A model generated the notes under the pieces. The model saw nothing but the letters and a program-made list of their open reading frames with translations. It made no database searches and was not told where the DNA came from. 64,000 nucleotides of DNA from a bacterium (GTDB taxonomy: Bacteria; UBA8248): NCBI GenBank assembly GCA_022828125.1, contig JAJEJD010000024.1, forward strand, positions 124,001 through 188,000, written 5' to 3'. A program made the position numbers and the translations under genes. Below, piece by piece: positions 4,967-49,840 of this stretch. The stretch's first letter is position 1; every line of letters starts with the position of its first letter.

Positions 4967-5728
4967 TCACAAACGCATGAAATGGCGGTCGACCAGATTG
5001 AGGAAATCCGCCGTAAAGTTTTCGATTTCATCCGCGATCACCTTCACGCGGCCCTGGTAGTGATTATAGGCGATCACGGCGGGAATGGCCGCCAGCAACC
5101 CGAGCGCCGTGGCGATGAGCGCCTCGCTGATGCCCGGCGCAACGACGGCGAGCCCGGCGGAACCCCTGGCGCCGATTTCGCGAAACGAATTCATGATACC
5201 CCACACCGTGCCGAAAAGCCCGATGAACGGCGTGGCGCTCGCCGTGGTGGCCAGAAAGGTCAGCATGCGCTCGAGCCTGCTCACCTGCTCGTTCGCTGCG
5301 CGCCTCAGCGCTCGCTCGACGCTCTCCACCCCCGTCATTTCCGAGGTGAGGACGCTCGAATCCTCCTCTCCTTCCCGGGAACGCGTCTTCAGCACCTGTT
5401 CGGCTTCCTGATAGCCCGCGGCGAACACCTCGCCCACCGGACTGCCCTCGTGCTCGGCGAGTTCCGCATACAGCCTGTCGAGTCGCTTGGAGCGCCAAAA
5501 CGCATCGACGAACATCGCCGAGCGCCGCCGCGCGCCCCGAAGTTCCCAGAACTTCCAGATGATGATGGCCCAGGAAGAGAGCGAGAAAAACACGAGCACC
5601 AGCAAAACGAAAAACACCATGCCGCCCGATTGGGTGGCGAGGGTGATGATGTCCATTTCTTCTTGAGGCGGTGCAAGTGGCGCGGAATCGCCCGTCGGTA
5701 ACGCGGCCGCGGCCAAAAAAGGCAGCAA
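4967..5728 (-). CDS. tolQ: Tol-Pal proton channel subunit TolQ (MotA/TolQ/ExbB)
   Basis: TolQ is the polytopic inner-membrane subunit that assembles with TolR and uses proton-motive force. Three membrane segments are visible: about 34-58 (GGMVFFVLLVLVFFSLSSWA), about 155-180 (ATTASATPFIGLFGTVWGIM) and about 190-218. The second and third carry the small and Thr/Ser residues that line the channel. The chosen start is TTG at 5728, seven bases after AAGGAG. An internal ATG at 5656 would remove a short extension and has only a weak ribosome site. The length of 253 residues fits the family. It is the first gene of the tol-pal cluster. Confidence 0.94.
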   Translation of the reverse strand: MLPFLAAAALPTGDSAPLAPPQEEMDIITLATQSGGMVFFVLLVLVFFSLSSWAIIIWKFWELRGARRRSAMFVDAFWRSKRLDRLYAELAEHEGSPVGEVFAAGYQEAEQVLKTRSREGEEDSSVLTSEMTGVESVERALRRAANEQVSRLERMLTFLATTASATPFIGLFGTVWGIMNSFREIGARGSAGLAVVAPGISEALIATALGLLAAIPAVIAYNHYQGRVKVIADEIENFTADFLNLVDRHFMRL

Positions 5729-34199: not shown

Positions 34200-34398
34200 A
34201 CACGGCCCTCCTCGAATGGAAACATCAGAGCAAAAGCCCCGATTCCCGGACGATCCGAATCCCCTGATCACGGAATCAGACGACCCGAATCGCCTCACGC
34301 AATAACCGATTCACCAGTTTGTGAATTTCATCCGATTGTAGTTTCAACAAGATGAACTTGTAAACATCCGGGGGGTGGAAAATCCCCGTTTTCCCTGG

Positions 34399-34797
34399 CG
34401 GGGTTGTTGAGAAAATCCCTTCTCAGGGGGCAGAGGGACGCCCCCCTCGACCGGAAAACCAACCCCCCCTACCCCCCCTTAACAGGGGTCAAACGCGAGT
34501 GATGAGCGAGCGTTTGCATGAACCATTGACGAGAAACACATCGTCTTGCAAAACCTCCCTCTTCGGTCGGTTTTGACCCCTGACAAGGGGGGGTAGGGGG
34601 GGGTGCTCCCTTGAAAAAGCCTGACCTGCCCCCCGCAAACCGCCAACGCCTCATTCCTCATCCTGAGTAGCCGCCGAAGGCGGCGTATCGAAGGACGAGG
34701 GGAGTCGAACGCCTCGCGCCGGGCGAGAGGGCATCCTTCGATACGCGGCTCCGCCGCTACTCAGGATGAGGCGAGGAGGGGTTTTCAACAACCCCCT
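34399..34797 (+). repeat. Repeat island 2 with inverted ends
   Basis: The gene-free gap between the binding protein and the dehydrogenase. It opens with GGGGTTGTTGAGAAAATCCC (34400) and closes with the inverse GGGGTTTTCAACAACCCCC (ending about 34796). Inside are a facing pair of the C-rich AACCCCCCCTACCCCCCCTT family (about 34459-34490 and 34575-34606) and a CCTGAGTAG-type inverted pair (34659-34694 and 34734-34769). Remaining bases around it hold nothing recognisable. Confidence 0.8.
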
Positions 34798-34846
34798 CAA
34801 GAGGGGGAGTTGATTTCCTCCTTCCTCGGTCGGCAACTCCCCCCCC

Positions 34847-35866
34847 TCACACCGGATTGATCACCCCGTGAGCCTCCCCTGTCCGGAAGAAATCGCGGAT
34901 GTGGCCGAGCGTCGTCCCCGGGTCCGCCCGCCAGTAGTCCGACCCTCCGCCCGTATGGGGGAGCAGGACCACGTTCGGAAGCTCGCGGAGCGGGCTCGAT
35001 TCCGGCAGCGGCTCCTGCCGGTAGACGTCCAGGCCCGCCATGGCGATCTCTCCGCTCCCGAGCGCGCGCACCATCGCGTCCTCGTCGATCAGCCCGCCGC
35101 GCCCCACGTTGACGATGATGGCGCTCGGCTTCATCCGCTTGAGCTGCGCAGGGCCGATGATGCCTTCGGTTTCGGGCGTATGCGGCAGGACGAGGACGAC
35201 GTAGTCCGAGACGTCGAGCAAATCATCGAGCGCGAGAAACTCGACGCCCAGCATTCGCTCGACCTCGCCGGGGTGCGGGGTGCGCTGGTGGTAGCGGACG
35301 CTCATCTCGAAGGCGCGGCACCGCCGGGCGACCTCGATGCCGATGTCGCCCAGGCCGACGATCCCCGCCGTCTTTCCGAACAATTCGCTCAGCCCCGCCA
35401 TCTTCATCCAGTTCCCGCCGGTCCGCCACTGGCTCGTCGTGACGGGCTCGATTCCCATATCGAGATAGGCCGCCTCGCTCACGGCGCGGTGACCCGGAAT
35501 CACCTGCCGCGCGCAGGCGAGCATCAGCGCCAGCGCGTGCTCGGCCACGGCGGCGTTTCTGAGCAGGGAGCACGTCGCCACGGGAATCCCCCGCTCGGTC
35601 GCCGCCGCAAGGTCGATGTTGCGGCAGTTGCGCCCGTGCTTCTGGATCAACCGGAGCCGATTCGCGGCGCGTATGGCCGAGCCGGGCAGCGGCGCCTTGT
35701 AGCAGAGGATGGCCTCGGCCTCGGGCGCGCAGGCGCAAAGCGCCTCTTCCCCTTCCGCTTCGGGTACGATGAACTCGAAGTCCTCCGCCCCCTCGCACCC
35801 GCGCATTCGTTCGGCGAAGCGGGGCGGGTCGGCGTCGGTGAGCAAAAGGCGAATCGGGTCGGCCAT
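34847..35866 (-). CDS. D-isomer-specific 2-hydroxyacid dehydrogenase
   Basis: This 339-residue NAD(P)-dependent enzyme is of the phosphoglycerate/hydroxypyruvate dehydrogenase family. The nucleotide-binding motif is GKTAGIVGLGDIGIEVARRC. Catalytic residues lie in VNVGRGGLIDEDAMVRAL (Arg), DVYRQEPLPESSPLRELPNV (Glu) and VLLPHTGG (His). The leading domain includes ILCYKAPLPGSAIRAANRLR and IQKHGRNCRNIDLAAATERG. GGAGG lies six bases before the ATG. Repeat islands flank it on both sides. The substrate is not determinable. Confidence 0.92.
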   Translation of the reverse strand: MADPIRLLLTDADPPRFAERMRGCEGAEDFEFIVPEAEGEEALCACAPEAEAILCYKAPLPGSAIRAANRLRLIQKHGRNCRNIDLAAATERGIPVATCSLLRNAAVAEHALALMLACARQVIPGHRAVSEAAYLDMGIEPVTTSQWRTGGNWMKMAGLSELFGKTAGIVGLGDIGIEVARRCRAFEMSVRYHQRTPHPGEVERMLGVEFLALDDLLDVSDYVVLVLPHTPETEGIIGPAQLKRMKPSAIIVNVGRGGLIDEDAMVRALGSGEIAMAGLDVYRQEPLPESSPLRELPNVVLLPHTGGGSDYWRADPGTTLGHIRDFFRTGEAHGVINPV

Positions 35867-35881
35867 GGGAAACCTCCAGTG

Positions 35882-36138
35882 AGGGGTTGTTGGGGAAGTC
35901 CTTCTCGCTCTGCATTGACCACTACCTGAATACCGGCGTCAACGCCGGTTCTGTTGCAGGGGCCGCAGGCTCTCGCCTTGAAAACCAACCCCCCCTACCC
36001 CCCCTTGTCAGGGGGGTATAAAAAGGCGATGCGCCCCCGCAGGGCTGAGGGGGTTTTGATTTTTCTTACCCCCCTGACAAGGGGGGGTAGGGGGGGTTGC
36101 ATTTATCCCCTGAAAAGGGACTTTTCCAACAACCCGGA
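35882..36138 (+). repeat. Repeat island 3 with inverted ends
   Basis: Between the dehydrogenase start and dppB. The left end is GGGGTTGTTGGGGAAGTCC (35883) and the right end is its near-inverse GGACTTTTCCAACAACCC (to about 36135). Inside is a facing pair of C-rich CCCCCCTACCCCCCCTTGTC repeats (about 35988-36017 and 36067-36099) and a degenerate CCGGCG palindrome (35932-35951). No gene is supported here. The dppB ribosome site lies just outside. Confidence 0.78.
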
Positions 36139-36234
36139 AAAGCCTGATTCGGATCGTGCATTCGGCCCGGTTATGATAGCATCGAATCTCCTCTCATGAT
36201 GATTTGATTCTCTTTCGGGCGGGAAGGCGCGTTC

Positions 36235-37167
36235 ATGTTCGAATATCTTCTGCGGAGAGTGTTCCTTCTCATCCCGGTTCTCATCGGGGTTTCGCTCGTC
36301 ATCTTCCTCTCCATCCGCCTCGTTCCGGGAGACCCGGCCGAAGCCCTGGCGGGCGAATTCGCGGACGAGGAGTATATCGCGGAAATCCGCCGGATATACG
36401 GACTGGACCAGCCCCTCCACGTCCAGTACGGCATGTTCATGAAGCGCGCCTTACAAGGTGACCTGGGCCGCTCGATCCTCTCCGACAGGCCCGTGCTGAA
36501 CGAAGTCTGGACCCGCTTCCTGAACACGCTTCAACTCGCTTTCTGGGCGGTGCTTCTCGCCACCATTGTGGGTTTGCTGGCCGGGGTATTATCGGCGACA
36601 AACCCGTATTCCAAGTTCGACTACGGGAGCATGACGGGCGCGCTGCTCGGGATATCCATGCCCTCGTTCTGGTTCGGCCTGATACTCATGGGGTTTTTCT
36701 CCGTCTATCTCGGGTGGCTCCCGGCGGGAGGAAAGGGCACGTGGGCCCACCTCATCATGCCGGTGGTCACGCTCGGCCTGACGGGGGCCGGGCTCATCGC
36801 GCGCATGACGCGCAACACCATGCTCGAGATAACGGGCAGCGAATACATCACCACGGCGCGCTCGAAGGGCCTGGCGAGCGGAAAGGTCCATTACGTCCAC
36901 GCGCTCAAGAACGCCCTGCTTCCCGTCATCACCGTGATCGGCCTCCAGTCGGGATACCTGCTGGGAGGGTCCGTGATCACCGAATCGGTGTTCGCCTGGC
37001 CGGGACTCGGGCGCTACATCGTCGAGGCCATCAAGCTGCGCGATTACGCCGCGGTGCAGGGCTCGCTGCTGTTCTTCGCGCTCACGTTCGCCGTGGTGAA
37101 CCTGACGGTGGACCTCCTCTACGCGGTGTTCAACCCGCGCATCCGCTATGGGGGGTCGGGCGAATGA
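36235..37167 (+). CDS. ABC oligopeptide-type permease (DppB family)
   Basis: This 310-residue inner-membrane subunit of a peptide/nickel-type ABC importer has six predicted helices. The family N-terminus is intact (MFEYLLRRVFLLIPVLIGVSLVIF), followed by RLVPGDPAEALAGEFADEE and IYGLDQPLHVQYG. The ATPase-contacting EAA loop is in YITTARSKGLASGKVHYVHALKNALLPV, and GSVITESVFAWPGLGRYIVEA closes the protein. GGAAGG lies ten bases before the ATG. It overlaps dppC by four bases. DppD/DppF ATPases are not in the window. Confidence 0.94.
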   Translation: MFEYLLRRVFLLIPVLIGVSLVIFLSIRLVPGDPAEALAGEFADEEYIAEIRRIYGLDQPLHVQYGMFMKRALQGDLGRSILSDRPVLNEVWTRFLNTLQLAFWAVLLATIVGLLAGVLSATNPYSKFDYGSMTGALLGISMPSFWFGLILMGFFSVYLGWLPAGGKGTWAHLIMPVVTLGLTGAGLIARMTRNTMLEITGSEYITTARSKGLASGKVHYVHALKNALLPVITVIGLQSGYLLGGSVITESVFAWPGLGRYIVEAIKLRDYAAVQGSLLFFALTFAVVNLTVDLLYAVFNPRIRYGGSGE

Positions 37168-38063
37168 ACGAGGCCGCCGGAGTCGAATCCATCCCGCGCG
37201 ACGAGGTGGAAATTGCGCCGATTCGCGGCATGTGGACGGACACCTTCCGGCGTCTGCTCAAGCACCGCGTCGCCGTGGCGGGCTGCGTTTTCGTCGCGAT
37301 CTTCGTCGCCGCGTCCCTGCTGGCGCCCCTCATCGCGCCTTACGATCCCATCAAGGCGGATTTTCAGGCGGCGCTCAAAAACCCCTCGCTCGTCCATCCT
37401 TTCGGGACGGACCATTTCGGGCGCGACGTGTTCAGCCGCATCATCTACGGCGCGCGCACCTCGCTGCTCATCGGGGTGTTCTCCGTGCTCATCGCCGCGG
37501 TCGGGGGCGTGCTGCTCGGCCTCGTCGGCGGTTACCTCGGCGGATGGATCGACAACCTCATCATGCGGGTCGTGGACGTCTCGCTCACCTTCCCGCGCAT
37601 CCTGCTCTCCATCCTGCTCATCGCCATCATCGGCACGGGGATGGAGAACATCATGCTGGCGGTGGGCATCTTCGCCATCCCGACCTACGCCCGGCTGGTG
37701 CGCAGTTCGGTCCTCGTCCTGAAAGAAACCGAATTCGTGGAGGCGGCGCAGGCCATAGGCGGCTCGAGCAGCCGCGTGCTGTTCCTGCACATCTTTCCGG
37801 GGACGCTCGGCCCCATCGTCGTGCAGTCGACCTTCCTCATCGCGACTTCCATCCGCGTGGCGGCGGGCCTGAGTTTTCTGGGAATCGGCGTGCCCCCGCC
37901 CACGCCCGAATGGGGGACCATGCTCGCCGACGCGCGCTCCTACATGGCGCTGGCCCCGCACCTGCTCGCCATCCCCGGCTTCGCCCTCATGGGCGTGGTG
38001 CTCTCCTTCAACCTGCTCGGTGACGGGCTCAGGGACGCGCTCGATCCGAAGTTGAGGAGGTAG
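37164..38063 (+). CDS. ABC oligopeptide-type permease (DppC family)
   Basis: This 299-residue partner of the DppB-like subunit shows the family start after a short cytoplasmic tail: RRLLKHRVAVAGCVFVAIFV and SLLAPLIAPYDPIKADF. HPFGTDHFGRDVFSRIIYGARTSLLIG is the classic signature, and EFVEAAQAIGGSSSRVLFLHIFPGTLG is the EAA loop. The ATG at 37164 overlaps the dppB stop (ATGA). The last 30 bases, coding for LDPKLRR, recur with two changes at 38455, behind hicB. Confidence 0.94.
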   Translation: MNEAAGVESIPRDEVEIAPIRGMWTDTFRRLLKHRVAVAGCVFVAIFVAASLLAPLIAPYDPIKADFQAALKNPSLVHPFGTDHFGRDVFSRIIYGARTSLLIGVFSVLIAAVGGVLLGLVGGYLGGWIDNLIMRVVDVSLTFPRILLSILLIAIIGTGMENIMLAVGIFAIPTYARLVRSSVLVLKETEFVEAAQAIGGSSSRVLFLHIFPGTLGPIVVQSTFLIATSIRVAAGLSFLGIGVPPPTPEWGTMLADARSYMALAPHLLAIPGFALMGVVLSFNLLGDGLRDALDPKLRR

Positions 38064-38127
38064 GGGGGGGACGGCATATCCACAAGCATCCCGTGTAGCG
38101 CGACCTGTCTCCACCGGAGGAGGAATG

Positions 38128-38340
38128 ATGTTCAAGTACGAGATCATTCTCTATTGGAGCAACGTGGACAACGCTTTCGTGACCGAGGTTCCGGAGCTTC
38201 CCGGCTGCATGGCGCACGGGGAGTCGCAGGAAGAGGCTCTCAAGCACGTCAATCAGGCGATGAAACTCCGGATAGATACGGCGCGAGAATTCGGCGCCCC
38301 CGTACCGGAACCCAAGGGAGAGCGCTTGATGCTCGCGTGA
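38128..38340 (+). CDS. HicB-type antitoxin, apparently orphan
   Basis: This 70-residue protein has the partial RNase-H-like HicB fold: FKYEIILYWSNVDNAFVTEVPELPGCMAHGESQEEAL, then HVNQAMKLRIDTAREFGAPVPEPKG. GGAGGAGG lies four bases before the second of two tandem ATGs, so 38128 is preferred to 38125. HicB normally neutralises the HicA mRNA interferase, but no hicA-sized frame is seen on either side. It lacks the C-terminal DNA-binding domain of longer HicB proteins. It lies between direct repeats behind dppC. Confidence 0.82.
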   Translation: MFKYEIILYWSNVDNAFVTEVPELPGCMAHGESQEEALKHVNQAMKLRIDTAREFGAPVPEPKGERLMLA

Positions 38341-38343
38341 GGG

Positions 38344-38482
38344 CTGTAAGCGCAAAAGAAATCGCGGCGGAGGTTCCCGACGACTCCGGGCGCGTGCTCG
38401 CCAGGGAAGCAGACCTCCTCGCCGCCATCCGCGCGGATGATTTTCGCCTGGAGGCGCTCGATCCGAAGCTGCGGAGGTAGGG
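38344..38482 (+). pseudogene. 3' fragment of an rraA-family gene fused to a dppC tail
   Basis: Translation gives KEIAAEVPDDSGRVLAREADL and LAAIRADDF, closely matching residues about 185-215 of the RraA-family protein at 31245. It then switches to LEALDPKLRR, the end of DppC. No start codon or N-terminal part is present. Sequence divergence from the intact gene indicates it is not a recent copy of that gene. Confidence 0.75.
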
Positions 38483-38524
38483 GGTAGACGCGAAGGTTTT
38501 GTTTGGAAAAGGGTGAGAATTTGC

Positions 38525-38550
38525 TAGGGACAGGTCGCGACCTGTCCCTA
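38525..38550. repeat. Perfect 26-bp palindrome (REP-like)
   Basis: TAGGGACAGGTCG is followed directly by its exact reverse complement. It belongs to the GGGACA palindrome family seen elsewhere in the window. It lies ten bases before a fragment of a REP-associated transposase. Confidence 0.8.
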
Positions 38551-38558
38551 CGGGTAGG

Positions 38559-38789
38559 GCGAAAATCAAATCATTATCGGAATTGATCGGCGCGTTCAAG
38601 ACCACATCCCCGAAACAAATACGCGAAAACGGCCTGGCTTCCTTCAAATGGCAGCGTTCGTTTTACGATCACGTCATCCGCGACGATGAAGACATGAACC
38701 GCATCCGGGAATACGTTCGGGACAATCCGGCCAGGCGGACGCTTGATGAAGAGGACCCGGAGAATCTAGCTAAGGGGTTTTATTCGTGA
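38559..38789 (+). pseudogene. C-terminal remnant of a REP-associated tyrosine transposase (IS200-like)
   Basis: The frame AKIKSLSELIGAFKTTSPKQ ... SFKWQRSFYDHVIRDDEDMNR IREYVRDNPARRT matches the C-terminal part of RAYT proteins. The catalytic HUH motif and tyrosine would lie upstream and are missing. The end (LAKGFYS) resembles the last residues of the RraA-family protein (LVKRFYS), and the two genes share GGTTTTATTCGTGA around the stop. RAYTs are linked to REP palindromes, and one lies directly upstream. Confidence 0.72.
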
Positions 38790-38919
38790 AGTGATTTTCT
38801 TCTTACATCCTGTTACTGATAAATGATATACAAACCAGATTAAACTATCGGTGCAAGTGAATGGCGGACTGTATTCGTAGCTACTCACTGCGTCCGGCCC
38901 GCAAACGAACGGAGAGGAA

Positions 38920-40992
38920 ATGACGCAAGCGGACATCATCCAGACGGTTCTAAAGGACAGTGATTATCATCTCGATCAGTTCACGGGGGATGAAACCGAG
39001 GCCTTAAGGCAAAGGGTCTTCTTGAAAACTGTGAGAGGCAAGGAAACGCCTCATGTAACTTGCATCGTTCGGAAAAAAGACGTTCAGCTAAAACCGGAAG
39101 AAATCGTTCGCCAGCTTTACGCAGCCCGGTTGATGGAGCGATATGGCTATCCCGAGAAACGATTGACATTCGAGCATCCCGTCAACTTCGGTAGGGAGAT
39201 AAAGAAAGCCGATATCATCGTCTTCGATGTGGACAGAGTCGATGCGCCCTACATTATCGTCGAAGTGAAAAAGCCGAAACTTAGGGACGGGAAAGAGCAA
39301 CTTCACTCCTATTGCAACGCTACGGGCGCGCCGATTGGCGTATGGACGAACGGCGACCAGATATCCCACTACCACAGAAAAGAACCGAACCATTTCGTGG
39401 ATATCACGAATATCCCAAAGAACAACCAATCGCTTGAGGATATTTTGAAGGGACATTTCAAACTCAAGGACCTCATCCTCAACGACAAACTCGCCACCGA
39501 GAGGAAATCCCTCAAGGACCTCATTCTCGAACTTGAGAACGACGTTCTGGCGAATGCGGGGGTGGATGGATTCGAGGAGGTTTTCAAGCTCATCTTCACC
39601 AAGCTCTACGACGAATTCAAAAGCAAGGAGGACAAGACAAGGATAGATTTTTGGCTCGAACAGCATCTGAGCCAAGAAGATCGAGGTGATTTTGAAAAGC
39701 GCAAGGGATGCCTCGCCGAACTTGATGATAGAACTTTCCGTCCTATGGAGTTCAGAAATACCGGCCAGACCGACGCGCAGCTTCAAAACAAGATTCAAAG
39801 GATTTTCAATCAGGCCATAGACCAATGGCCGGGCGTGTTCCCCCAAGGCGCGACGTTCGAACTCACTGACACACATCTGGCGGTTTGCGTATCAAGACTA
39901 CAGGACGTCAAACTGTTCAACTCCAACCTTCTCGTCATAGACGAGGCGTTCGAATATCTGGTCAGCCAATCCGCCAAAGGTCAGAAAGGGCAATACTTCA
40001 CCCCCCGCCACGTGATCGACATGTGCGTGAAGATGCTCAATCCTAAAAGTGGGGAATACATGATAGACACCGCTTCGGGCAGTTGCGGTTTTCCCGTGCA
40101 CACCATCTTCCAGATCACGGGCCATCTGTTCAGCAACGCGGAAATTTCCGAACAAGACAAAGAGGACGTACTGCGGGTTTTCGGCATCGACTTCGATGAA
40201 AAAACGGTTCGCGTCGCCAGGACCTTGAACCTGATTGCAGGTGATGGCGAAACCAACGTTTTGCACCTGAACACGTTGGATTATGAGCGATGGGAGGACA
40301 GAACGGAAAAAGACAGAAAATGGATCAGCACCTACGGGAAGGGTTTCGATAGGCTAGCAAAATTGAGAACCGAAAAAAGCGAAAACAAGCGATTCAATTT
40401 CGACCTCCTGATGGCGAATCCACCCTTCGCAGGCGACGTGAAGGAAAGCCGCATCCTCCATCAATACGAACTGGGCGCCAAGGAAAACGGCAAGTGGCAA
40501 AACAAGGTCGGTCGCGACATTCTGTTCATCGAGAGGAACCTGGACTTCCTGAAACCCGGCGGGCGTATGGCCATCGTGCTGCCGCAAGGTAGATTCAACA
40601 ACACGTCCGACGCCCGCATTCGGGATTTCATCGCCGAGCGCGCGCGAATTCTGGCGGTGGTCGGTCTGCACGACAACACCTTCAAGCCCCACACTGGCAC
40701 CAAGACCAGCGTATTGTTCGCGCAGAAATGGAACGACGACCCGGCGCAAGGCCCACTTTGCCCGAGGGTGGAGGACTATCCCGTCTTTTTCGCCGTCTCT
40801 CAAAAGGGCGGCAAGAACAACTCCGGCGATTACATTCACCTCAAAGACGAAACCGGGCGAGAGAAACTGGACAAGAACGGACACTTGATCGTCGAACATG
40901 ACCTGCACAACCATGACGGCGAACTGTCCGACGGTATTTCGGAGAGGTTCATCAAGTGGGCGAAAGGTGTGAAATTGAGTTTTTGGAGATAG
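38920..40992 (+). CDS. Restriction-modification fusion: HsdR_N-type nuclease plus N6-adenine methylase
   Basis: This 690-residue protein starts with an HsdR-N-like nuclease domain (about 50-170) carrying a PD-(D/E)xK arrangement: KKADIIVFD (Asp98) and IIVEVKKPK (Glu115, Lys117). The methylase follows: a helical region (about 200-345), KGQKGQYFTPRHVIDM (354-369), SAM-binding DTASGSCGFPVHTIF (383-397) and the catalytic NPPF (500-503). It is read with a HEPN-like gene and a specificity subunit. The single-chain nuclease-methylase plus separate S subunit recalls BcgI-type (type IIB) systems, though a distant HsdR cannot be excluded. GAGAGGA precedes the ATG. Confidence 0.88.
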   Translation: MTQADIIQTVLKDSDYHLDQFTGDETEALRQRVFLKTVRGKETPHVTCIVRKKDVQLKPEEIVRQLYAARLMERYGYPEKRLTFEHPVNFGREIKKADIIVFDVDRVDAPYIIVEVKKPKLRDGKEQLHSYCNATGAPIGVWTNGDQISHYHRKEPNHFVDITNIPKNNQSLEDILKGHFKLKDLILNDKLATERKSLKDLILELENDVLANAGVDGFEEVFKLIFTKLYDEFKSKEDKTRIDFWLEQHLSQEDRGDFEKRKGCLAELDDRTFRPMEFRNTGQTDAQLQNKIQRIFNQAIDQWPGVFPQGATFELTDTHLAVCVSRLQDVKLFNSNLLVIDEAFEYLVSQSAKGQKGQYFTPRHVIDMCVKMLNPKSGEYMIDTASGSCGFPVHTIFQITGHLFSNAEISEQDKEDVLRVFGIDFDEKTVRVARTLNLIAGDGETNVLHLNTLDYERWEDRTEKDRKWISTYGKGFDRLAKLRTEKSENKRFNFDLLMANPPFAGDVKESRILHQYELGAKENGKWQNKVGRDILFIERNLDFLKPGGRMAIVLPQGRFNNTSDARIRDFIAERARILAVVGLHDNTFKPHTGTKTSVLFAQKWNDDPAQGPLCPRVEDYPVFFAVSQKGGKNNSGDYIHLKDETGREKLDKNGHLIVEHDLHNHDGELSDGISERFIKWAKGVKLSFWR

Positions 40993-40994
40993 TG

Positions 40995-41567
40995 ATGTCG
41001 AACTCTGAGAATATCTCTCTTTGGAAGAAAAAAGCAGAGATAGATTATATCCCGCTATTCATGTCGCTCTGGCTCTCTCTCAATGCCTGGATGAGGGACA
41101 GGTTCAACGTAGATAAGGACCGAGAGATTCTTAACTTACTTAAATCCAGTGATGGTCAACTAAAAGATCGATTTTCTGAGTTAATACATCAAAGCAACGC
41201 AGAGTCTCTCAGATTCAAAGGCAACTTCTCAGAGTTGTGCAGGGCACTTGATAATGCGGATATTCGCTATACAAAAGAACAATGGAAAAACAAAAAGGTC
41301 TCTTTTGAAAATTGCATCATTGATTGGGCGAATGGCTCGCCCCAATTTACATCCATCCTTAAAACCAAACATCAGCAATCCAAAATTCAAATAGACGACG
41401 GATTGTGGGTTGAAGATGACAATGCTCACATATTCGCAGCCTATATCGAAATCCTTTATCAAGTGCGTTGTGCGTTATTTCACGGAGACTTACCCCCAAA
41501 ACCTGAAAATGAAAGAGTAGTAAAAGCCCTTTATTTAACACTTTCAATGGTCATGGAGAAAGTTTGA
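40995..41567 (+). CDS. HEPN-like protein within the restriction-modification operon
   Basis: This 190-residue helical protein is of unknown family. It starts two bases after the methylase stop (GGAG upstream) and ends one base before the specificity gene. Near its C-terminus it has RCALFHG (Arg158-x4-His163), the R-x4-6-H motif of HEPN RNases. That motif sits in a helix preceded by IFAAYIEILYQV and followed by KALYLTLSMVMEKV. The N-terminal half has a helix with SLWLSLNAWMRDRF. HEPN domains act as RNases in toxin-antitoxin and phage-defence systems. The RNase role is inference from one motif and context. Base composition is AT-rich like its neighbours. Confidence 0.7.
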   Translation: MSNSENISLWKKKAEIDYIPLFMSLWLSLNAWMRDRFNVDKDREILNLLKSSDGQLKDRFSELIHQSNAESLRFKGNFSELCRALDNADIRYTKEQWKNKKVSFENCIIDWANGSPQFTSILKTKHQQSKIQIDDGLWVEDDNAHIFAAYIEILYQVRCALFHGDLPPKPENERVVKALYLTLSMVMEKV

Positions 41568-41568
41568 A

Positions 41569-42999
41569 ATGCGATATTCAGTCGTAAATTATTCAGAAAT
41601 TAAGAATACATTTGATTTCAGAATTGACGCTGAATATTGGCATCCTGACTTCATCAGGAACAGTCAATTCGTTTCTAAAGACAATCCAAAAATCCGAGAT
41701 TTTGTAGAACATAATGTCCCCAATATCAAATCATCACCTATAAATAGGGATTTTGAGTACTTGGAAATTTCCAACATTTCTGTAAACAGTTGCGAATATG
41801 AAACCACAAAAATTAAATTTGGTGAAGAACCGGACCGAGCTCACCATATCCTAAAAAAAAGTGACATCGTTGTTTCTACTGTCCGCCCAAACAGAAACGC
41901 GGTCGCTTGTATTGAAAAGAGCGGGATTATCGGCAGTAGTGGTTTGTCTATTTTAAGAGCAAAGAACATCGAGTCAGAGTATCTTTTAGCTTTTTGTAAA
42001 ACTGACTATTTCACCAAATGCTTGATAAGGGCAAACAAAGCAAGTATGTATCCGGCAGTTTCAAACAATGATATTTTGGATGTTCCGATATTCGTCCCAT
42101 CTTTCCAATTTAAGATGCTAATCATAGAAATTGTTAAAGGTTTTCATTCTAAAAATCGCCAAGCTAAACAACTCTATACCCAAGCTCAAAACATTCTCCT
42201 CACTGAACTCGGACTCGCAGGCTGGACGCCTGAACATCAGCTAACCTTCTTCAAAGACTATTCCGAGGTCAGGCGGGCTGAGCGATTCGACGCAGATTAC
42301 TTCCAGCCGAAATATAATGAAATCATCAAGGCCATAAAGTGCTATTCCGGCGGATGCAGTACGCTTGGACATCTTTGTGAGTTGGTAGGACATCCATCAA
42401 ATCCACCCTATGCGGAAACGGAAGATACGGACAAAACATTTATTATTACGCAAAAGCACTTGGGAGACTTTACTCTAAACGATGAATTTTGGAATGATGA
42501 AGAAGCTTTATACACCACCAAAGATTTTATAGACAAATTCAGCGAGTACGTTCTCCAAGCCGAAGATGTGCTTCTATATTCAGTTGGTGCATATATCGGT
42601 AAAGCGAATATCTACAAAGAAAACATCAAGGCTACAATCGGCAGTTTTTTGACATTGCTAAGAACAAGAAAAGAAAAGCTCAATCCATACTACCTGATGG
42701 CATTTCTTAATACTGATGTTGGCATTGCTATTTCAAAACAACATCAGCGAGGAATGGCGCAACAGTATTTATACCCTTATGATATCAGGACTTTTCCTAT
42801 CCCTTTGCTCTACGAAGAAATTCAAACCGAGATACAAGAAAAGGTCACCGAATCCTTCGACCTGCGGAAACAATCCAAACGCCTGCTCGAATGCGCGAAG
42901 CGCGCGGTGGAAATCGCCATCGAGGAGGACGAGGAAACGGCGACCGAATGGCTTGAAAAAGAAACCGTGGAAATCGGATCGGGCAGGGCGGACACATAG
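41569..42999 (+). CDS. hsdS: Type I-like restriction-modification specificity subunit
   Basis: This 476-residue protein has two target-recognition domains separated by conserved helices. The first half starts RIDAEYWHPDF and includes YLEISNISVNS and DIVVSTVRPNRNAVACIEKSG. The second starts RFDADYFQPKYNEI and includes YVLQAEDVLLYSVGAYIGKAN and HQRGMAQQYLYPYDIRTFPIP. Each ends with a long helix (Q.EI..KV...F), ending in ECAKRAVEIAIEEDEETA. HsdS sets the sequence recognised by the methylase/nuclease. It is AT-rich in the variable domains and GC-rich at the 3' end. A diverged copy of the last 60 codons recurs 0.8 kb downstream. Confidence 0.92.
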   Translation: MRYSVVNYSEIKNTFDFRIDAEYWHPDFIRNSQFVSKDNPKIRDFVEHNVPNIKSSPINRDFEYLEISNISVNSCEYETTKIKFGEEPDRAHHILKKSDIVVSTVRPNRNAVACIEKSGIIGSSGLSILRAKNIESEYLLAFCKTDYFTKCLIRANKASMYPAVSNNDILDVPIFVPSFQFKMLIIEIVKGFHSKNRQAKQLYTQAQNILLTELGLAGWTPEHQLTFFKDYSEVRRAERFDADYFQPKYNEIIKAIKCYSGGCSTLGHLCELVGHPSNPPYAETEDTDKTFIITQKHLGDFTLNDEFWNDEEALYTTKDFIDKFSEYVLQAEDVLLYSVGAYIGKANIYKENIKATIGSFLTLLRTRKEKLNPYYLMAFLNTDVGIAISKQHQRGMAQQYLYPYDIRTFPIPLLYEEIQTEIQEKVTESFDLRKQSKRLLECAKRAVEIAIEEDEETATEWLEKETVEIGSGRADT

Positions 43000-43067
43000 G
43001 TCCGCCCCTACGGAAAACCGGAAACCGAAAAGACACTGGATTCCGGCTCAAGGCCGGAATGACGGCG
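42984..43067. repeat. Palindromic repeats after hsdS
   Basis: GGGCGGACACATAGGTCCGCCC (42987-43008) forms a hairpin overlapping the hsdS stop. It is followed by a GGATTCCGGCTCAAGGCCGGAATGACG repeat (about 43040-43066) of the family seen at 10911 and 11023. The next ~270 bases up to rhuM show no supported gene. Confidence 0.65.
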
Positions 43068-43333
43068 TAAAGGAACGACGCGGGCGGCTCGTTCGATCTT
43101 CCCCTTTTCGGGGAAGTCCGACTCCCCTACGAAATCCAAATCCCCGGCCAGGATTGTCCCCCCACCGATTCAGCCTTCGCACAAACCGCTCGGCTTCATC
43201 GTCGGTCTTCCCGAGGAGGAAAGCTCGACCCTCAAGGGGGAGTTGGTGAGATGGGGCCATCGAAGAGGGATGCTCCCACTACTCCTTTTCGATAATATAT
43301 AATGGGTGAAAAATCGAGTCATTGAGGCCGGTC

Positions 43334-43600
43334 GTGAACAGACAGGACATCATCATATACAACACCCCGGATGGCCATACGGCCGTGGGTCTTTACGCCC
43401 ATGAGGGCACGATATGGCTGAATCAGAATCAGATCGCCGACCTTTTTGCCACCTCCAGGGCGAACGTCAGCATCCACATATCCAACATACTGAAAGAAAA
43501 AGAGTTGCACGAAAATTCAGTTGTTAAGGATTTTTTAACAACTGCCTCGGACGGCAAGGAATATCGCGTTCGACTTCAATCCGCGACCAGAGCAAGTTGA
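43334..43600 (+). pseudogene. RhuM-family gene, truncated at the 3' end
   Basis: The N-terminal ~80 residues of a RhuM/virulence-protein family member: DIIIYNTPDGHTAVGLYAHEGTIWLNQNQIADLF, an HTH region (FATSRANVSIHISNILKEKEL) and the LHENSVVKDFLTTASDGKEYRVR motif. Full-length relatives have more than 300 residues; here the frame is lost after KEYRVR and joins an hsdS 3' fragment. RhuM-like genes are frequent inside type I restriction loci. The start may be GTG at 43334 or TTG at 43322. Confidence 0.8.
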
Positions 43601-43605
43601 TGAGG

Positions 43606-43808
43606 CGATAATCCCCATCCTCCCCGAAGAACTCCAAACCGAGATTCAGGAAAAGGTCACCGAACCCTTCGACCTGCGCAGACAATCCAAGCGCCCCCTC
43701 GAATGCGCCAAGCGCGCGGTGGAAATCGCCATCGAAGAGGACGAGCAGACGGCGATGGAATGGCTCGGTCGCGAGACCGGCGGAAACGGATCGGGCAGGG
43801 CGGACACC
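43606..43808 (+). pseudogene. 3' fragment of a second hsdS gene
   Basis: The frame reads IPILPEELQTEIQEKVTE, FDLRRQSKRPLECAKRAVEIA and EEDEQTAMEWLGRETGG, closely matching the last 60 residues of the intact HsdS at 41569 but with many differences. It has no start and joins the broken rhuM gene on its left. It looks like the tail of another hsd locus rather than a recent copy. Confidence 0.82.
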
Positions 43809-43861
43809 TCCGGTATTCCCCTTCTCGGGGATACCGACACCCCAACGGGATTATCACCCTT

Positions 43862-44103
43862 CGATAGGACAGCTCGAGAGCTGTCCCTACAAAACCAACC
43901 CCCCCTACCCCCCCTTGTCAGGGGGGTATGAAAAGGCGACGCCCGCCGCCGGTTGAGGGGCTTTTGTTTTTTTTTGCCTCCTGACAAGAGGGCTTTCTTT
44001 CTTGCCCCTTTATCAGGGGGCCTTCTTTTTTACCCCCCTGTCAAGGGGGGATAGGGGGGTTGCCTTTATCCCCTGACATGAGGAACTTGTTCAACAACCC
44101 CTC
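43862..44103. repeat. Repeat cluster before the cupin gene
   Basis: Contains a GGACAGCTC/GAGCTGTCC palindrome (about 43865-43884). A facing pair of the C-rich ACCCCCCCTTGTCAGGGGGG family follows (about 43898-43929 and 44031-44061). The end motif GTTCAACAACCCC (44089-44102) matches the right ends of islands 1-3. A partner left end was not found. The sequence between the C-rich pair resembles that in island 3. No gene is supported from 43810 to 44278. Confidence 0.7.
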
Positions 44104-44188
44104 ATCAATCGCGTCATTCACTCCCTCATCGGTCGCGATTGATCCTCAAAGGGGGGAGTGGGTTCCCTCTTCTCGCCCAAAGGCGGTT

Positions 44189-44219
44189 TTGACACTCACG
44201 CCGCGGGGTGTGGTATGAT
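44189..44219 (+). promoter_or_regulatory. Predicted promoter of the cupin gene
   Basis: TTGACA (44189-44194) and TATGAT (44214-44219) with TGG directly before the -10 (an extended -10). The spacer of 19 bases is long but tolerable with the extended -10. It lies about 60 bases before the cupin start. Confidence 0.5.
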
Positions 44220-44278
44220 CCGCCGCGTTCCTGGATAAAGGCGAAGGGCGCGAATCAAACCAGAGGAGGGGTGACGCC

Positions 44279-44632
44279 ATGAAGGTGATGAACTACAAGG
44301 ATGCGGAACTGAAAGCGGAGAAGGCGGCCAAGGGCGCAGGCATCCGCTGGCTGCTGAGCGAGCGCGACGGCGAGACCGGGATGGCGATGCGGGTCATCGA
44401 GATAGAGGCGGGTGGGCAGACGCCCGACCATTCCCACTCCTGGGAGCACCAGGTGTTCATGCTGAAGGGCGAGGGGCGGGTGATAGTCGAGGGCGAGACT
44501 CAGGCCATCGCGCCGGGCTCGGCCATATTCGTCGCGCCGGGCGAGAACCACACCTTCCACAACGATTCGGACGAGACGATGGAGTTCGTCTGCATGATTC
44601 CCGTGAGCGCCACCAAGGCGTACGAGCACTAG
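44279..44632 (+). CDS. Single-domain cupin protein
   Basis: This 117-residue beta-barrel protein has cupin motif 1 with metal ligands in PDHSHSWEHQVFMLKGEG (two His, one Glu/His) and motif 2 in APGENHTFHNDSD with the last His. It may act as a small isomerase, dioxygenase or sugar/amino-acid binding protein; the type cannot be told. GAGGAGGGG precedes the ATG by seven bases. It has its own predicted promoter. An AT-rich repeat lies directly downstream. Confidence 0.88.
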   Translation: MKVMNYKDAELKAEKAAKGAGIRWLLSERDGETGMAMRVIEIEAGGQTPDHSHSWEHQVFMLKGEGRVIVEGETQAIAPGSAIFVAPGENHTFHNDSDETMEFVCMIPVSATKAYEH

Positions 44633-44648
44633 GCCGCAGAACCCGCCT

Positions 44649-44688
44649 GGAATTTCCGAAAAATTCGATAAATATCGATAAATTCACG
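44649..44688 (-). repeat. AT-rich dispersed repeat, copy 1
   Basis: The sequence around TTCGATAAATATCGATAAA is the inverse of 61571-61610, with most of 40 positions matching. The similarity extends to a TTTTCTGAAAAT block at about 44693-44703. It stands out as AT-rich between GC-rich genes. Its function is unknown. Confidence 0.7.
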
Positions 44689-44827
44689 ATGTTTTTCTGA
44701 AAATGAAACCGGTGGAAAACGGGGGGCGTGCCGGGGGGTTCTCCCCTGCGCGCGATGATGTATATTAGGCGCATCGCCGCCCGCATGAAACCGGGAAATG
44801 CGACATAACGAGGGGAGATGCGAGGAA

Positions 44828-45547
44828 ATGACGGAGATTATCGACCTGTCCATGCCCGTCCACATGTGGATGGAGCGCTACCCGGGCACGCCGCAGCCCG
44901 TCATCCAGATGATAGAGACGACGTTCGAGTCCGCCACGCGCATCGGCACCGACAAGATGGGCTTCCCCGAGCTGTTCGCCCACAGCGTGTGCATCTTCAG
45001 CGAGCATTGCGGCACCCACATCGACGCGAGAAGCCACGGCGGCCGGAACGATTCGTGGTCCGAGGACATCCCGCTGGAGAAATGCTACGGGCCGGGCCTG
45101 CGGCTCGACATGCGCCATAAGAAACCGGGCGAGGCCATCGAAATCAAAGACTTGGAAGACGCTCTCGCGAAGGAGAACTACACGATAAGGGGCGGGGAAA
45201 TCGTCTTCCTCTGGACGGGCGCCGCCGCCTACAACGACGAGCCGCGCTACCTGACGGACCACCCCGGCGTGGTGGGCGAGAGCGCGGAGTGGCTCATCGA
45301 CCAGGGCGTGAGCGTGATGGGCATCGACGCGCCGGGCTTCGACCTGCCCATCAAGGAGATGCTCGAGCGCAAAGACCCCTGGCCGTGCCACCGCCTCTTC
45401 CAGACGCGCGAATACTGGCACATCGAGAACCTCTGCAACCTGGACGCCATCCCCGCTGCGCACGGGTTCACGGCCAGCGTCCTGCCGCTTCACTGGCAAG
45501 GCGCCACGGGGACGCACATCCGCGCCGTCGCCATCGTGAACGAGTAG
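44828..45547 (+). CDS. Cyclase-family metal hydrolase (kynurenine formamidase-like)
   Basis: This 239-residue enzyme belongs to the cyclase family (arylformamidase KynB and isatin hydrolase relatives). The start IIDLSMPVHMWMERYPGTP is typical. The signature HCGTHIDARSH carries the metal ligands (His-x3-His-x-Asp), and a second catalytic part is VSVMGIDAPGFDLP. The end has LPLHWQGATGTHIRAVA. The ATG at 44828 has GCGAGGAA just before it; a longer frame lacks support. Possible substrates are N-formylkynurenine-like amides or cyclic imides. It is followed closely by an unknown exported protein. Confidence 0.87.
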   Translation: MTEIIDLSMPVHMWMERYPGTPQPVIQMIETTFESATRIGTDKMGFPELFAHSVCIFSEHCGTHIDARSHGGRNDSWSEDIPLEKCYGPGLRLDMRHKKPGEAIEIKDLEDALAKENYTIRGGEIVFLWTGAAAYNDEPRYLTDHPGVVGESAEWLIDQGVSVMGIDAPGFDLPIKEMLERKDPWPCHRLFQTREYWHIENLCNLDAIPAAHGFTASVLPLHWQGATGTHIRAVAIVNE

Positions 45548-45553
45548 GCGAAA

Positions 45554-46603
45554 GTGGCTTTCACGGGCCGCAAGGGAGTCGTCCGGGCGGGAAAGCGGGC
45601 GATTCGCCTCATCGTCTTCTCGTTCTCATTCCTCATCGGACCGTGCTTCATCGCCGGGCTTGCAGACGCCGCGAAACCGCCTAACGCACTGAAATCGAAG
45701 GCGAAGCAAAACCGCGAGGCGCGGGTCGAGCTGTATGAGCGCACGCTGAGAAAGCATCTCGCATCCGGCCCCTATCCCCTGATCGATCTGGAGATATCGC
45801 TCGACCGCTGGAAGAGCGTAGCACTACTGATCGAGGGCATGAACCGCGCGGGCGTCGCCCTGGGCGCGGTCACCTCGGCGCGTGAGGAGGCCATCAAAAA
45901 AGCCGTAGCGCAATACCCCGGACGATTGATACCGCTCACCACTTCGGCTCCCCAGAATGACTGGATGCGAGGCGGGAGCGGCTATCTTTCGGGCATCAAA
46001 CGGCAGCTCGAAGGCGGCGCGTTCGGGATCGGGAAGATAACCTGGCGACCTGTTTCCTCCGATAAGGCGCAAATGACTCGTGCTGGAGAGGCTTTGGGGG
46101 CGGTGATGCGTCTGGCGGCCGGAAAAAAGAGCTTTCTCATGCTCGACATGCCGCCCGATGATGATGGCCTGGAGCAACTCGAGCGGATATTGAGAGCGGC
46201 GCCCGAGGCGAGAATCATCTGGACGCAAGCCGGCAGGATATTGAATTTGAGCGCGTTACCCGGTTATGGGCACGGCCTCCTGCGGGCGCTGAGCCTGAGG
46301 CACGCGGGCCTCCTCTTCACCCTGACCCAGGATCCGCCTGCCTCCGATGTAACCACTCCGCGGAAAAACCACCTATATGACCCGGGTGGGGCGTTCTCCC
46401 GCGAATGGCGGGCATTGCTCGAAGCGCGGGTAGGGCATTTCACGGCCGGGAACGATTCCTCCCCGGCCACTCCGGCGGCCTATGCGGGAAGAACGCTCTT
46501 TTTTCGACAAAACATCCTCGGAAACATCAGCCCGCCCGCCGGAAAGCTCATCGCCTACCGGAACGCATGGCGGCTTCTGATGAATCGCCGCTGGATGCCT
46601 TGA
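45554..46603 (+). CDS. Exported protein with a degenerate amidohydrolase-like barrel
   Basis: This 349-residue protein starts with GTG six bases after the cyclase stop. An N-terminal signal peptide (about 15-39, VFSFSFLIGPCFIAGLADA) predicts export. The mature part resembles amidohydrolase-2/TIM-barrel proteins in outline (LIDLEISLDRW, FLMLDMPPDDDGLEQLERIL, RIIWTQAG), but the usual metal-binding His-x-His and Asp are not evident. A non-hydrolytic role or a diverged site is possible. I do not assign a function. Confidence 0.65.
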   Translation: MAFTGRKGVVRAGKRAIRLIVFSFSFLIGPCFIAGLADAAKPPNALKSKAKQNREARVELYERTLRKHLASGPYPLIDLEISLDRWKSVALLIEGMNRAGVALGAVTSAREEAIKKAVAQYPGRLIPLTTSAPQNDWMRGGSGYLSGIKRQLEGGAFGIGKITWRPVSSDKAQMTRAGEALGAVMRLAAGKKSFLMLDMPPDDDGLEQLERILRAAPEARIIWTQAGRILNLSALPGYGHGLLRALSLRHAGLLFTLTQDPPASDVTTPRKNHLYDPGGAFSREWRALLEARVGHFTAGNDSSPATPAAYAGRTLFFRQNILGNISPPAGKLIAYRNAWRLLMNRRWMP

Positions 46604-46731
46604 TTCACGAAATTTCCCCCGAATCCGTTGCATCCGGCCCTGCGCATGGGGATAATGCCGACCTTTGGGGTTCAAAATATCCCGAGCAGTGATTTCCCGA
46701 TAAAACAGCTTACGATCAAGGAGTTCGCCTC

Positions 46732-47880
46732 ATGTACAGCATACGCCACCCGAAACGAACCTGGTTCGGCCTCGGAACCATAGCGAAAATCAAGGATGAA
46801 GCGGCGTTTTTAGGCGCCCGCAACGCGCTTTTCTTCACGGACAAGGGTGTGCGGGGCGCAGGCGTAGCGGACATGGCATTGGCTCCTCTCGAAGAGGCCG
46901 GAGTGCAAGTCACGATTTACGATGAGTGCCCGCCCGAGCCCGCCATCGGCGATCTCGAAAGTGCATATAATGAATTCAAAAACAACACTTTCGACCTCGT
47001 CGTCGGGGTCGGGGGCGGCAGTTCGATGGACATGGCGAAATCCATCGGCGTATTACTTGGCAACGAAGGCGCACCCAGGGATTATCTGGGCATAGAGCTC
47101 GTGCCGAAACCGGGCCTCTCCACCATCCTGGCGCCCACGACGAGCGGAACCGGGGCCGAGGCCACACCCAACGCCATCTTCTCGGTGCCGGAAGAACAGG
47201 TGAAACTGGCCATCGTGAGTACGCACGTCATCCCGTTCGCCGCCATCGTGGATCCCAATCTCACGCTTTCCGCACCGCCGAAAGTCACCTCCGCCGCCGG
47301 GGTGGACGCCTTCACGCATTGCCTGGAAACCTACGTGGCCAGAAACGCCACGCCCTTGAGCGAGATGTACAGCCTGGAGGGCATGAAGCTCATCGCCCGC
47401 TCCTTGAGGCGCGTATGTGACGACGGAAGCGACATCGAGGCAAGAACCGACATGGCCCTGGGTTCATACTATGGCGGCGTCGCGCTCGCAGGAGCCGGGG
47501 CGGGCGCCATTCATGCACTGGCGTATCCGCTCGGCTCGCGGTTCCACATTCCCCACGGGGTCAGTAACTCACTGATGTTTTCCCACGTCATGAAGGAAAA
47601 CCACGCGGCGGCGCCTGAGAAATTCGCCCGCATCGCCCGAATCCTGGGCGAATCCACGGATGGCATGTCCACGGCTGAAGCCGCCGAGCTTTCCGTCGGC
47701 GCGGTCGAGAAACTTTGCCGCGATTGCGGGGTGCCTACCCGGCTCGGCGAAGTGGACGTGCCCGCACACGCCATCCCGGAGTTGGCCGAAGCCGCTTTCA
47801 AGCTGGAACGTCTTTTAAGCTGTAACCCCAAAGAACTCACGCTCGAAGACATCGAGAGAATCTATCGCGCCGCGGCTTGA
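46732..47880 (+). CDS. Iron-containing alcohol dehydrogenase
   Basis: This 382-residue group III dehydrogenase oxidises primary alcohols or reduces aldehydes with NAD(P). The nucleotide-binding GVGGGSSMDMAKSIG lies near residue 88. PTTSGTGAEATPNAIF and GVDAFTHCLETYVAR contain metal ligands, and GAIHALAYPLGSRFHIPHGVSNSLM has the His residues of the metal site. AAGGAG precedes the ATG by eight bases. The YqeC-like gene begins almost at its stop. Confidence 0.94.
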   Translation: MYSIRHPKRTWFGLGTIAKIKDEAAFLGARNALFFTDKGVRGAGVADMALAPLEEAGVQVTIYDECPPEPAIGDLESAYNEFKNNTFDLVVGVGGGSSMDMAKSIGVLLGNEGAPRDYLGIELVPKPGLSTILAPTTSGTGAEATPNAIFSVPEEQVKLAIVSTHVIPFAAIVDPNLTLSAPPKVTSAAGVDAFTHCLETYVARNATPLSEMYSLEGMKLIARSLRRVCDDGSDIEARTDMALGSYYGGVALAGAGAGAIHALAYPLGSRFHIPHGVSNSLMFSHVMKENHAAAPEKFARIARILGESTDGMSTAEAAELSVGAVEKLCRDCGVPTRLGEVDVPAHAIPELAEAAFKLERLLSCNPKELTLEDIERIYRAAA

Positions 47881-47882
47881 AG

Positions 47883-48668
47883 ATGCCCATGGAACCATTT
47901 TCTTCGCAAAAGCTGCGCCCGCTGATGGACATCGCCCCCGGAGACATGGTCTGCGTCATGGGCGCCGGCGGCAAGGCCACGCTCATGAAGCGCCTCATCC
48001 GGGAGATGCTGGATGAGCCGTATCCCGTCATCATCACCAGCACGACGAACCTCCACGCCCTGGGAGTCGAAGACGCGCCGCCGGTGCTGTTGAGCGAGGA
48101 GGGACGCGCTGAACTGCAATCCGTCGCTCAGGATTGGTCGGGGCGCGGCGCCGTCGTCTGGGTGGAGAAAAAACTGCCCCAGAACATGTTTCGCGGCCTC
48201 GAGGCGAGCCAGGTGGAGGCTCTGAGCGCCTCGGGCTTTCACGGTGTGATGGTCGTAAAAACGGATGGCGCGAGGAAACGGCTCATCAAGGCCCCGGGAC
48301 CGGGTGAGCCGGTCATACCCCAAGGAGCGACACATTGCGTACTCGTGCTGGGACTCGCCGCAATCGGTCGAAATGCGGATGAGCGAATCGTCCATCGCAT
48401 AGAAAAAGTTCACTCCATCGCAGGCTTGGCGGCCGGGGAAGTTATTGAAGCGCATCATCTGGCGAAATTGGCGAGTCATCCGGAGAGCTACCCGAGCCGG
48501 TTTCCCGAAGGCGCAAAGCGGATACTCTACCTGAGCCATTGCACTTCCCAAGAAGCCCTTCAGGAAGCTCAAACGATATTCGAGGCCGTACCCGACGGCA
48601 TTTACGATTACCTGCTCACGGGAGATTCCGTTGCGGGAAATTTTTATCGCAGGGGGCAAAACGAATGA
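47883..48668 (+). CDS. yqeC: YqeC-like selenium-dependent hydroxylase accessory protein
   Basis: This protein of about 261 residues is similar to YqeC, which co-occurs with selenium-dependent molybdenum hydroxylases and is presumed to help their maturation. The N-terminus has a P-loop-like GDMVCVMGAGGKATLMKRL. Family stretches include PVIITSTTNLHAL, GVMVVKTDGARKRLIKAPGPGEPVIP and THCVLVLGLAAIGR. The start could be ATG at 47883 or the TTG at 47877 overlapping the dehydrogenase stop; neither has a clear ribosome site. It overlaps the next M20 gene (ATGA). A molybdenum hydroxylase lies 6 kb downstream. Confidence 0.82.
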   Translation: MPMEPFSSQKLRPLMDIAPGDMVCVMGAGGKATLMKRLIREMLDEPYPVIITSTTNLHALGVEDAPPVLLSEEGRAELQSVAQDWSGRGAVVWVEKKLPQNMFRGLEASQVEALSASGFHGVMVVKTDGARKRLIKAPGPGEPVIPQGATHCVLVLGLAAIGRNADERIVHRIEKVHSIAGLAAGEVIEAHHLAKLASHPESYPSRFPEGAKRILYLSHCTSQEALQEAQTIFEAVPDGIYDYLLTGDSVAGNFYRRGQNE

Positions 48669-49822: not shown

Positions 49823-49840
49823 GGCGCTCATCGAGAGCCC

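Follow-up and report, generated by a model that had tools for sequence, protein, structure and literature searches.

A HEPN-like gene between the methyltransferase and specificity genes of a Type IIB-like restriction-modification operon

Described systems and the operon in the window

HEPN genes within restriction-modification (R-M) operons are an established kind of arrangement. Links to R-M operons are described for 16 or more HEPN clades. PrrC, one such case, is kept inactive by the Type I enzyme encoded in the same operon, and a role as a back-up when restriction fails has been proposed (PMC3710099). The gene considered here lies in a stretch of 64,000 nucleotides, the whole of which we call the window, between a gene for a nuclease-methyltransferase fusion (M) and a specificity gene (S) (Table 1). 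It resembles PrrC-PrrI, a Type Ic system with an anticodon nuclease, in that a gene with a HEPN-type motif is embedded in an R-M operon. However, PrrC has an N-terminal ABC-ATPase sensor and its operon has hsdR, whereas the window protein has 190 amino acids without an ATPase (Pfam) and the window M itself carries a nuclease domain. Membership in the PrrC group was rejected on these grounds, as no ATPase model was found in the 190 residues and M and S have no helicase-type R gene for a neighbor. The R-M-linked HEPN families of the 2013 survey (MAE_28990, ApeA, Abi2, AbiU2, Ymh and others) share with the window the idea of a multi-pronged defense directed at both DNA and RNA, but the window family matches none of the Pfam models searched. 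In BREX and BREX-related loci, back-up effectors (HEPN, Schlafen, TOPRIM/OLD) also adjoin a methylation-based core (PMC12839542); that core is built of BrxC/DUF499 and PglZ, whereas the window core is a two-gene R-M enzyme. We consider three things new: a HEPN-like family that none of the searched libraries contains, its host enzyme, which is Type IIB-like and has neither motor nor ATPase sensor, and an effector slot that has left a remnant within the window. A literature search on HEPN with BcgI returned nothing related by title, although subscription papers lay mostly outside its reach and a prior description is possible. HEPN with hsdM and hsdS returned one review only, by title, and the titles on Campylobacter rlo genes included nothing on the window gene.

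The N-terminus of M matches a PD-ExK-like nuclease domain (HSDR_N_2, 1.4e-25) and its methyltransferase part an N6 adenine methyltransferase (N6_Mtase, 1.1e-32; both Pfam); with the S-type subunit gene downstream, this confirms the methylase-nuclease and specificity subunit named in a preliminary description of the locus. Residues D98, E115, K117, Q127 and Y131, together with ANPPF, are kept in all 11 M proteins aligned from HEPN-bearing loci. Among solved structures searched by sequence, the nearest to M is RM.BsaXI (4e-18), and PADLOC labels M as a Type I methyltransferase (7.5e-281). No helicase-type R gene was found among the ORFs at 34000-50000, and the three HSDR_N matches in the host genome are all on other contigs. 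Since nuclease and methyltransferase are fused, S is separate and no helicase-type R gene is seen nearby, the enzyme looks Type IIB-like at the level of sequence. Like BcgI and BsaXI, it combines an RM fusion and a separate S with an operon lacking a translocase gene (PMC11997821). It is unlike them in the extra gene between RM and S, and the cleavage typical of Type IIB enzymes, on both sides of a bipartite site with SAM and Mg, is in its case a prediction from sequence. Two other classes were tried and rejected. Classical Type I membership would call for a helicase-type R gene, and the ORF listing has none beside M and S. As for MADS, M resembles MAD2, its nearest NCBIfam model, and S resembles MAD5, but the scores (276 bits and 102 bits) are far under the curated cut-offs of 720 and 400, and the MAD models do not match the HEPN-like gene.

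The HEPN-like gene is tightly packed in this operon. The M stop (40992) is followed by a 2-base gap and the HEPN-like ATG (40995), and the HEPN-like TGA, ending at 41567, by a 1-base gap and the S start (41569). The coordinates and gaps of the preliminary description thus proved exact on re-reading. An alternative GTG start at 40956 would yield a product of 203 amino acids; the ATG is favored, because a GGAG lies 6 bases 5' of it and because the start Met is aligned in 17 of 17 family members. M has a conserved C-terminus (LSFW), the codons of which hold the GGAG of the next gene in the window and at three other loci (L006, L045, L047).

Table 1. Features of the operon and of the segment downstream, in window positions
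Feature	Position	Strand	Size	Basis or remark
M gene, nuclease-methyltransferase fusion (Type IIB-like RM subunit)	38920..40992	+	690 aa	Pfam domains
GGAG (ribosome-binding-like) for HEPN-like gene	40985..40988	+		within last M codons; read directly
HEPN-like gene	40995..41567	+	190 aa	ORF call, 17-member family, structure model
Arg158 codon of Rx4H motif	41466..41468	+		invariant 17/17
His163 codon of Rx4H motif	41481..41483	+		invariant 17/17
GGAG (ribosome-binding-like) for S gene	41555..41558	+		within HEPN-like gene 3' end; read directly
S (specificity) gene	41569..42999	+	476 aa	Specificity_I 4.6e-33; MAD5 3.1e-29 (below its cut-off)
RhuM-like gene, N-terminal part, truncated	43322..43600	+	92 aa	PADLOC PDC-S05 1.6e-30
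Second copy of S gene 3' tail, behind RhuM remnant	43611..43807	+		blastn and tblastn of S gene against 43001-44300

A family with an invariant R-x4-H motif

None of Pfam, NCBIfam, PADLOC and PHROGs gave a credible match to the window protein, and the other family members scanned against annotation libraries fared no better. The HEPN profiles in Pfam matched none of the members scanned, a sequence search of the PDB with the family profile gave nothing, and tblastn against phage genome records gave no relative. Relatives were drawn instead from a plasmid, a Poribacteria metagenome-assembled genome (MAG), the genomes searched with M, and viral contigs. The resulting alignment holds 17 distinct full-length members, the window protein included, and leaves out two duplicates (L063 and L085, of L062 and L084), one copy in two frames (L007) and one cut copy (L079). 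Identity to the window protein is 21-29% for all members but one (58%); the search that yielded the Poribacteria copy gave it 57%. Besides the start Met, only six positions are invariant (D17, F22, L85, Y155, R158 and H163). Arg158 and His163, which homologs had been expected to keep, are thus present in all 17 members, and invariance at such low identities argues that the R-x4-H is no chance match. A conserved R-x4-6-H motif is one criterion for the HEPN superfamily (PMC3710099), and R158 and H163 supply it throughout the family. The motif reads RCALFH in the window protein (residues 158-163) and mostly RN-x-L-x-H in the other members. The residue after the Arg, usually polar and mostly Asn in HEPN proteins, is Asn in 13 of the 17 and Cys in four, including the window protein.

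An AlphaFold2 model of the window protein, built on five aligned members (pLDDT 86.5, pTM 0.85), has helices at residues 3-13, 18-37, 42-51, 55-65, 69-88, 143-162 and 170-187, of which 18-37 and 69-88 are long, and a four-strand beta insert at 107-140. R158 lies near the end of the second-last helix (143-162), and H163 is the first residue past it. The model of a stand-alone viral copy (L061) shows the same order of secondary structure at lower confidence (pLDDT 75.3). HEPN domains are described as a four-helix up-down core in which an insert separates helix 2 from helix 3 and the motif spans the end of helix 3 and the start of the next loop (PMC3710099). The order of elements in both models follows this topology, and in the window model the Rx4H falls at the end of helix 3, the helix in which it had been anticipated. 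The fold searches were less favorable: neither model had a significant Foldseek match in the PDB, a structure search of BFVD gave nothing, and VIA-align retrieved no HEPN structure (best Z 2.9 for the window model and 6.2 for L061, the latter for the insert only). Of the structural check put forward in the preliminary description, then, the helix order and motif position came out as in HEPN proteins, but no HEPN structure was matched in the PDB. From motif and modeled topology together, we infer a HEPN fold for the window protein. The insert of the L061 model, which is longer, weakly resembles PUR-type nucleic-acid-binding repeats in VIA-align (Z 5.4-5.7, below the trust level), a hint from the model that it may bind nucleic acid.

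Recurrence beside M and S in a cargo slot

To avoid presupposing the HEPN-like gene, we used M as the query. Matches were found in 12 of 386, 21 of 200 and 6 of 299 genomes (one seen before in each of the last two sets), three small searches added none, and the searches gave 37 M loci, window included. The HEPN-like family is present at nine of them, in the order M-HEPN-S (the window and L007, where it is frameshifted), M-HEPN-Fic-S (L045, L047) or M-S-HEPN (L021, L027, L028, L037, L057). Viral contigs yielded eight M loci, seven of them distinct, and three of the seven carry the family: L082 (on the contig of L060), L084 (the same as L085) and L088. L084 and L088 were not in the profile set; this search is freer of profile bias. 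Among plasmids, four records match M, and one of the three loci opened has a HEPN-like gene. The recurrence of homologs in the same type of operon, proposed earlier as a check, is therefore observed in both bacterial and viral sequences. Searching conversely with a profile of the HEPN-like family, we found matches in 5 of 386, 5 of 200 and 2 of 299 genomes, that is, in 10 distinct genomes, nine of which have the match at an M locus; the members behind the profile were M-linked, a choice that favors this proportion. A Fisher test of the co-occurrence with M gives p 1.4e-12 on 883 genomes, 880 of them distinct, the same bias acting in favor of the ratio. Since relatives occupy operons of this type in bacteria that differ widely, the gene may well provide a second line of defense. 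The junction is visible in 15 R-M-linked copies (window, L005, L006, L007, L021, L027, L028, L037, L045, L047, L057, L060, L078, L084, L088); all of these overlap M or S or are separated from it by at most 3 bases, and at several HEPN-bearing loci a GGAG lies inside the upstream gene; these junctions are compatible with translational coupling.

Effector-like genes are exchanged at a cargo site that lies either between M and S or directly behind S. Across the 37 M loci, some of whose slot proteins were assigned by similarity to a scanned member, this slot holds the HEPN-like family of the window in nine (two of them also with Fic), DUF3800 in four, Fic alone in three, Schlafen/AlbA in two, GmrSD with a MAE_28990-type HEPN in two (L039, L044), and, in one locus each, an OLD-like AAA-TOPRIM protein, GIY-YIG and a HEPN-MNT fusion (NTase_sub_bind and Polbeta). 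Slot proteins without a family name carry RN[DE][VI]FHN at two loci and RNRAFHF at one, and a 274-amino-acid protein occupies one more. No cargo gene was seen at the remaining 10 (L024, L025, L026, L030, L035, L036, L042, L054, L055 and L059, the stretch read for L059 holding only part of M). The slot is thus shared by three or more families of HEPN proteins. When the window family profile was compared by hhalign with the rest of the slot proteins, the two HEPN proteins of MAE_28990 type among them, all probabilities were below 2%, so at that sensitivity these are separate families. The slot proteins with RNDVFHN, RNEIFHN or RNRAFHF motifs (L040 5135-6025, L046 4713-5483, L052 3934-4740) had no convincing Pfam match and are possibly further HEPN families. 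At L058 (1883-2572), a fusion of NTase_sub_bind (HEPN-M type) and a Polbeta nucleotidyltransferase directly follows the S gene of the same R-M family.

Traces of exchange are also seen in the window itself. The GC content is about 0.6 in the flanks, 0.49-0.53 in M, 0.396 in the HEPN-like gene and 0.36-0.40 over most of S, the tail of which is back at 0.53, as if the HEPN-like gene and the recognition part of S had been exchanged between conserved ends. The truncated RhuM-like gene behind S has plasmid homologs that bear the annotation 'virulence RhuM family protein'. After it comes another S tail, with 83.8% DNA identity to 42799-42995. The segment 43322-43807 is most simply explained as a decayed second cargo-S cassette. 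RhuM-like genes have been noted with PrrC-like proteins in R-M loci (PMC3710099).

A possible back-up RNase and competing explanations

We tentatively favor the reading that the HEPN-like protein is a back-up RNase of a Type IIB-like R-M system, acting when restriction fails, although our confidence in it falls somewhat short of even. It would be a metal-independent endoribonuclease, with a predicted Rx4H active site made of Arg158 and His163 and presumably formed in a dimer. Translational coupling would supply it in a fixed ratio with M and S; while the R-M enzyme works, the RNase would be idle or bound, and a phage that blocks or overwhelms the enzyme would release it to cut cellular or phage RNA, so that the infection is stopped. 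The slot beside S would be the place where such effectors are exchanged. We favor this reading because of where the gene sits in the operon, its junctions, which are compatible with coupling, and the precedent of PrrC (PMC3710099). The invariant motif, the modeled topology, the recurrence beside M and S and the other effector-like genes in the slot speak for it as well. Against it, HEPN structures and HEPN profiles were not matched in the searches, the M loci without cargo indicate that the HEPN-like gene is dispensable for R-M, the Cys after the motif Arg departs from the usual Asn, and the protein lacks the ABC-ATPase sensor of PrrC.

The history of the gene bears on how closely it is tied to the enzyme. 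HEPN-like proteins diverge about as fast as S, with identities mostly of 0.2-0.3 where those of M are 0.56-0.7. The HEPN and M identity matrices are correlated (Mantel r 0.62, reached by 2 of 10,000 shuffles), a value that a few close pairs may largely drive. At L021, M is like that of the window (0.71), but the HEPN-like protein is like that of L060 (0.64, versus 0.29 to the window protein), a clear sign in these sequences of a swap between M backgrounds. Such a swap speaks against an interface between M and HEPN that is tight and specific. For the close pair L045/L047, dN and dS are 0.16 and 0.29 for the HEPN-like gene, 0.06 and 0.64 for M, and 0.33 and 1.04 for S; the HEPN-like gene is therefore constrained, but loosely. 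Moreover, the family occurs in stand-alone copies. On viral contigs, one adjoins portal and capsid genes (L061 2003-2824; phrog_21 1e-99, phrog_4523), another lies antisense beside a terminase large-subunit gene (L062 911-1714, likewise L063), and a cut copy (L079 5604-6278) is in a contig similar to L062 and L063; neither M nor S was seen near these four. The tenth genome of the profile search (G433) has an orphan chromosomal copy (L077 5868-6659), and neither M nor S lies within roughly 5 kb of it. The HEPN-like protein can therefore be useful without this R-M enzyme, and its control by R-M is not universal. These copies, the swap at L021 and the unrelated cargo genes that share the slot all support the main competing explanation, in which an independent abortive-infection HEPN RNase rides in the R-M cargo slot and is neither held nor triggered by the enzyme. 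We regard this as a realistic though doubtful alternative: the junctions, at most 3 bases or overlapping in every visible case and some with an upstream GGAG, are tighter than a mere neighbor needs, and a free constitutive RNase would need an inhibitor, whereas the ORF listing shows no separate antitoxin gene in the window operon.

A broader form of the back-up reading would make the M/S complex a common guard, which would silence the toxins of exchanged 'effector plus S' cassettes (HEPN RNases of several unrelated families, Fic, Schlafen and RhuM among others) for as long as restriction is not blocked; the window HEPN family would then be the most frequent cargo sampled, which phages adopted as a stand-alone weapon against competitors. 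We think this general scheme rather unlikely. A non-catalytic or regulatory subunit, that is, a helical RNA- or protein-binder tuning the R-M complex or its expression, would suit the fixed stoichiometry that coupling likely brings, the nucleic-acid binding thought to be the role of motif-less HEPN proteins (PMC3710099) and the faint PUR likeness of the L061 insert. It is nevertheless improbable, since all 17 members retain the catalytic Arg and His although the sequence is otherwise mostly variable, and since the enzyme, whose loci may lack cargo or carry unrelated genes, does not need the HEPN-like protein. That the protein is not HEPN at all, but some other helical protein in which the R-x4-H arose by coincidence, would account for the missing fold and profile matches, but is very improbable given that the invariant R/H, the helix order, the insert position and the motif at the end of helix 3 fit the published HEPN definition.

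If the back-up reading is true, a two-gene R-M enzyme without motor or ATPase sensor controls a built-in RNase, and a minimal system would be at hand for testing how such enzymes sense that they have failed, a question of long standing. The HEPN catalog, too, gains a family; the searched annotation libraries miss it, and such loci are therefore likely scored as plain R-M now. A 3' fragment of a Klebsiella plasmid HEPN gene (about residues 129-263) is present in 465 plasmid records, mostly of Klebsiella plasmids. In the one record opened (L089), this fragment, at 4992-5408 and away from any M and S, adjoins an IS1-like transposase gene and two DUF262 genes.
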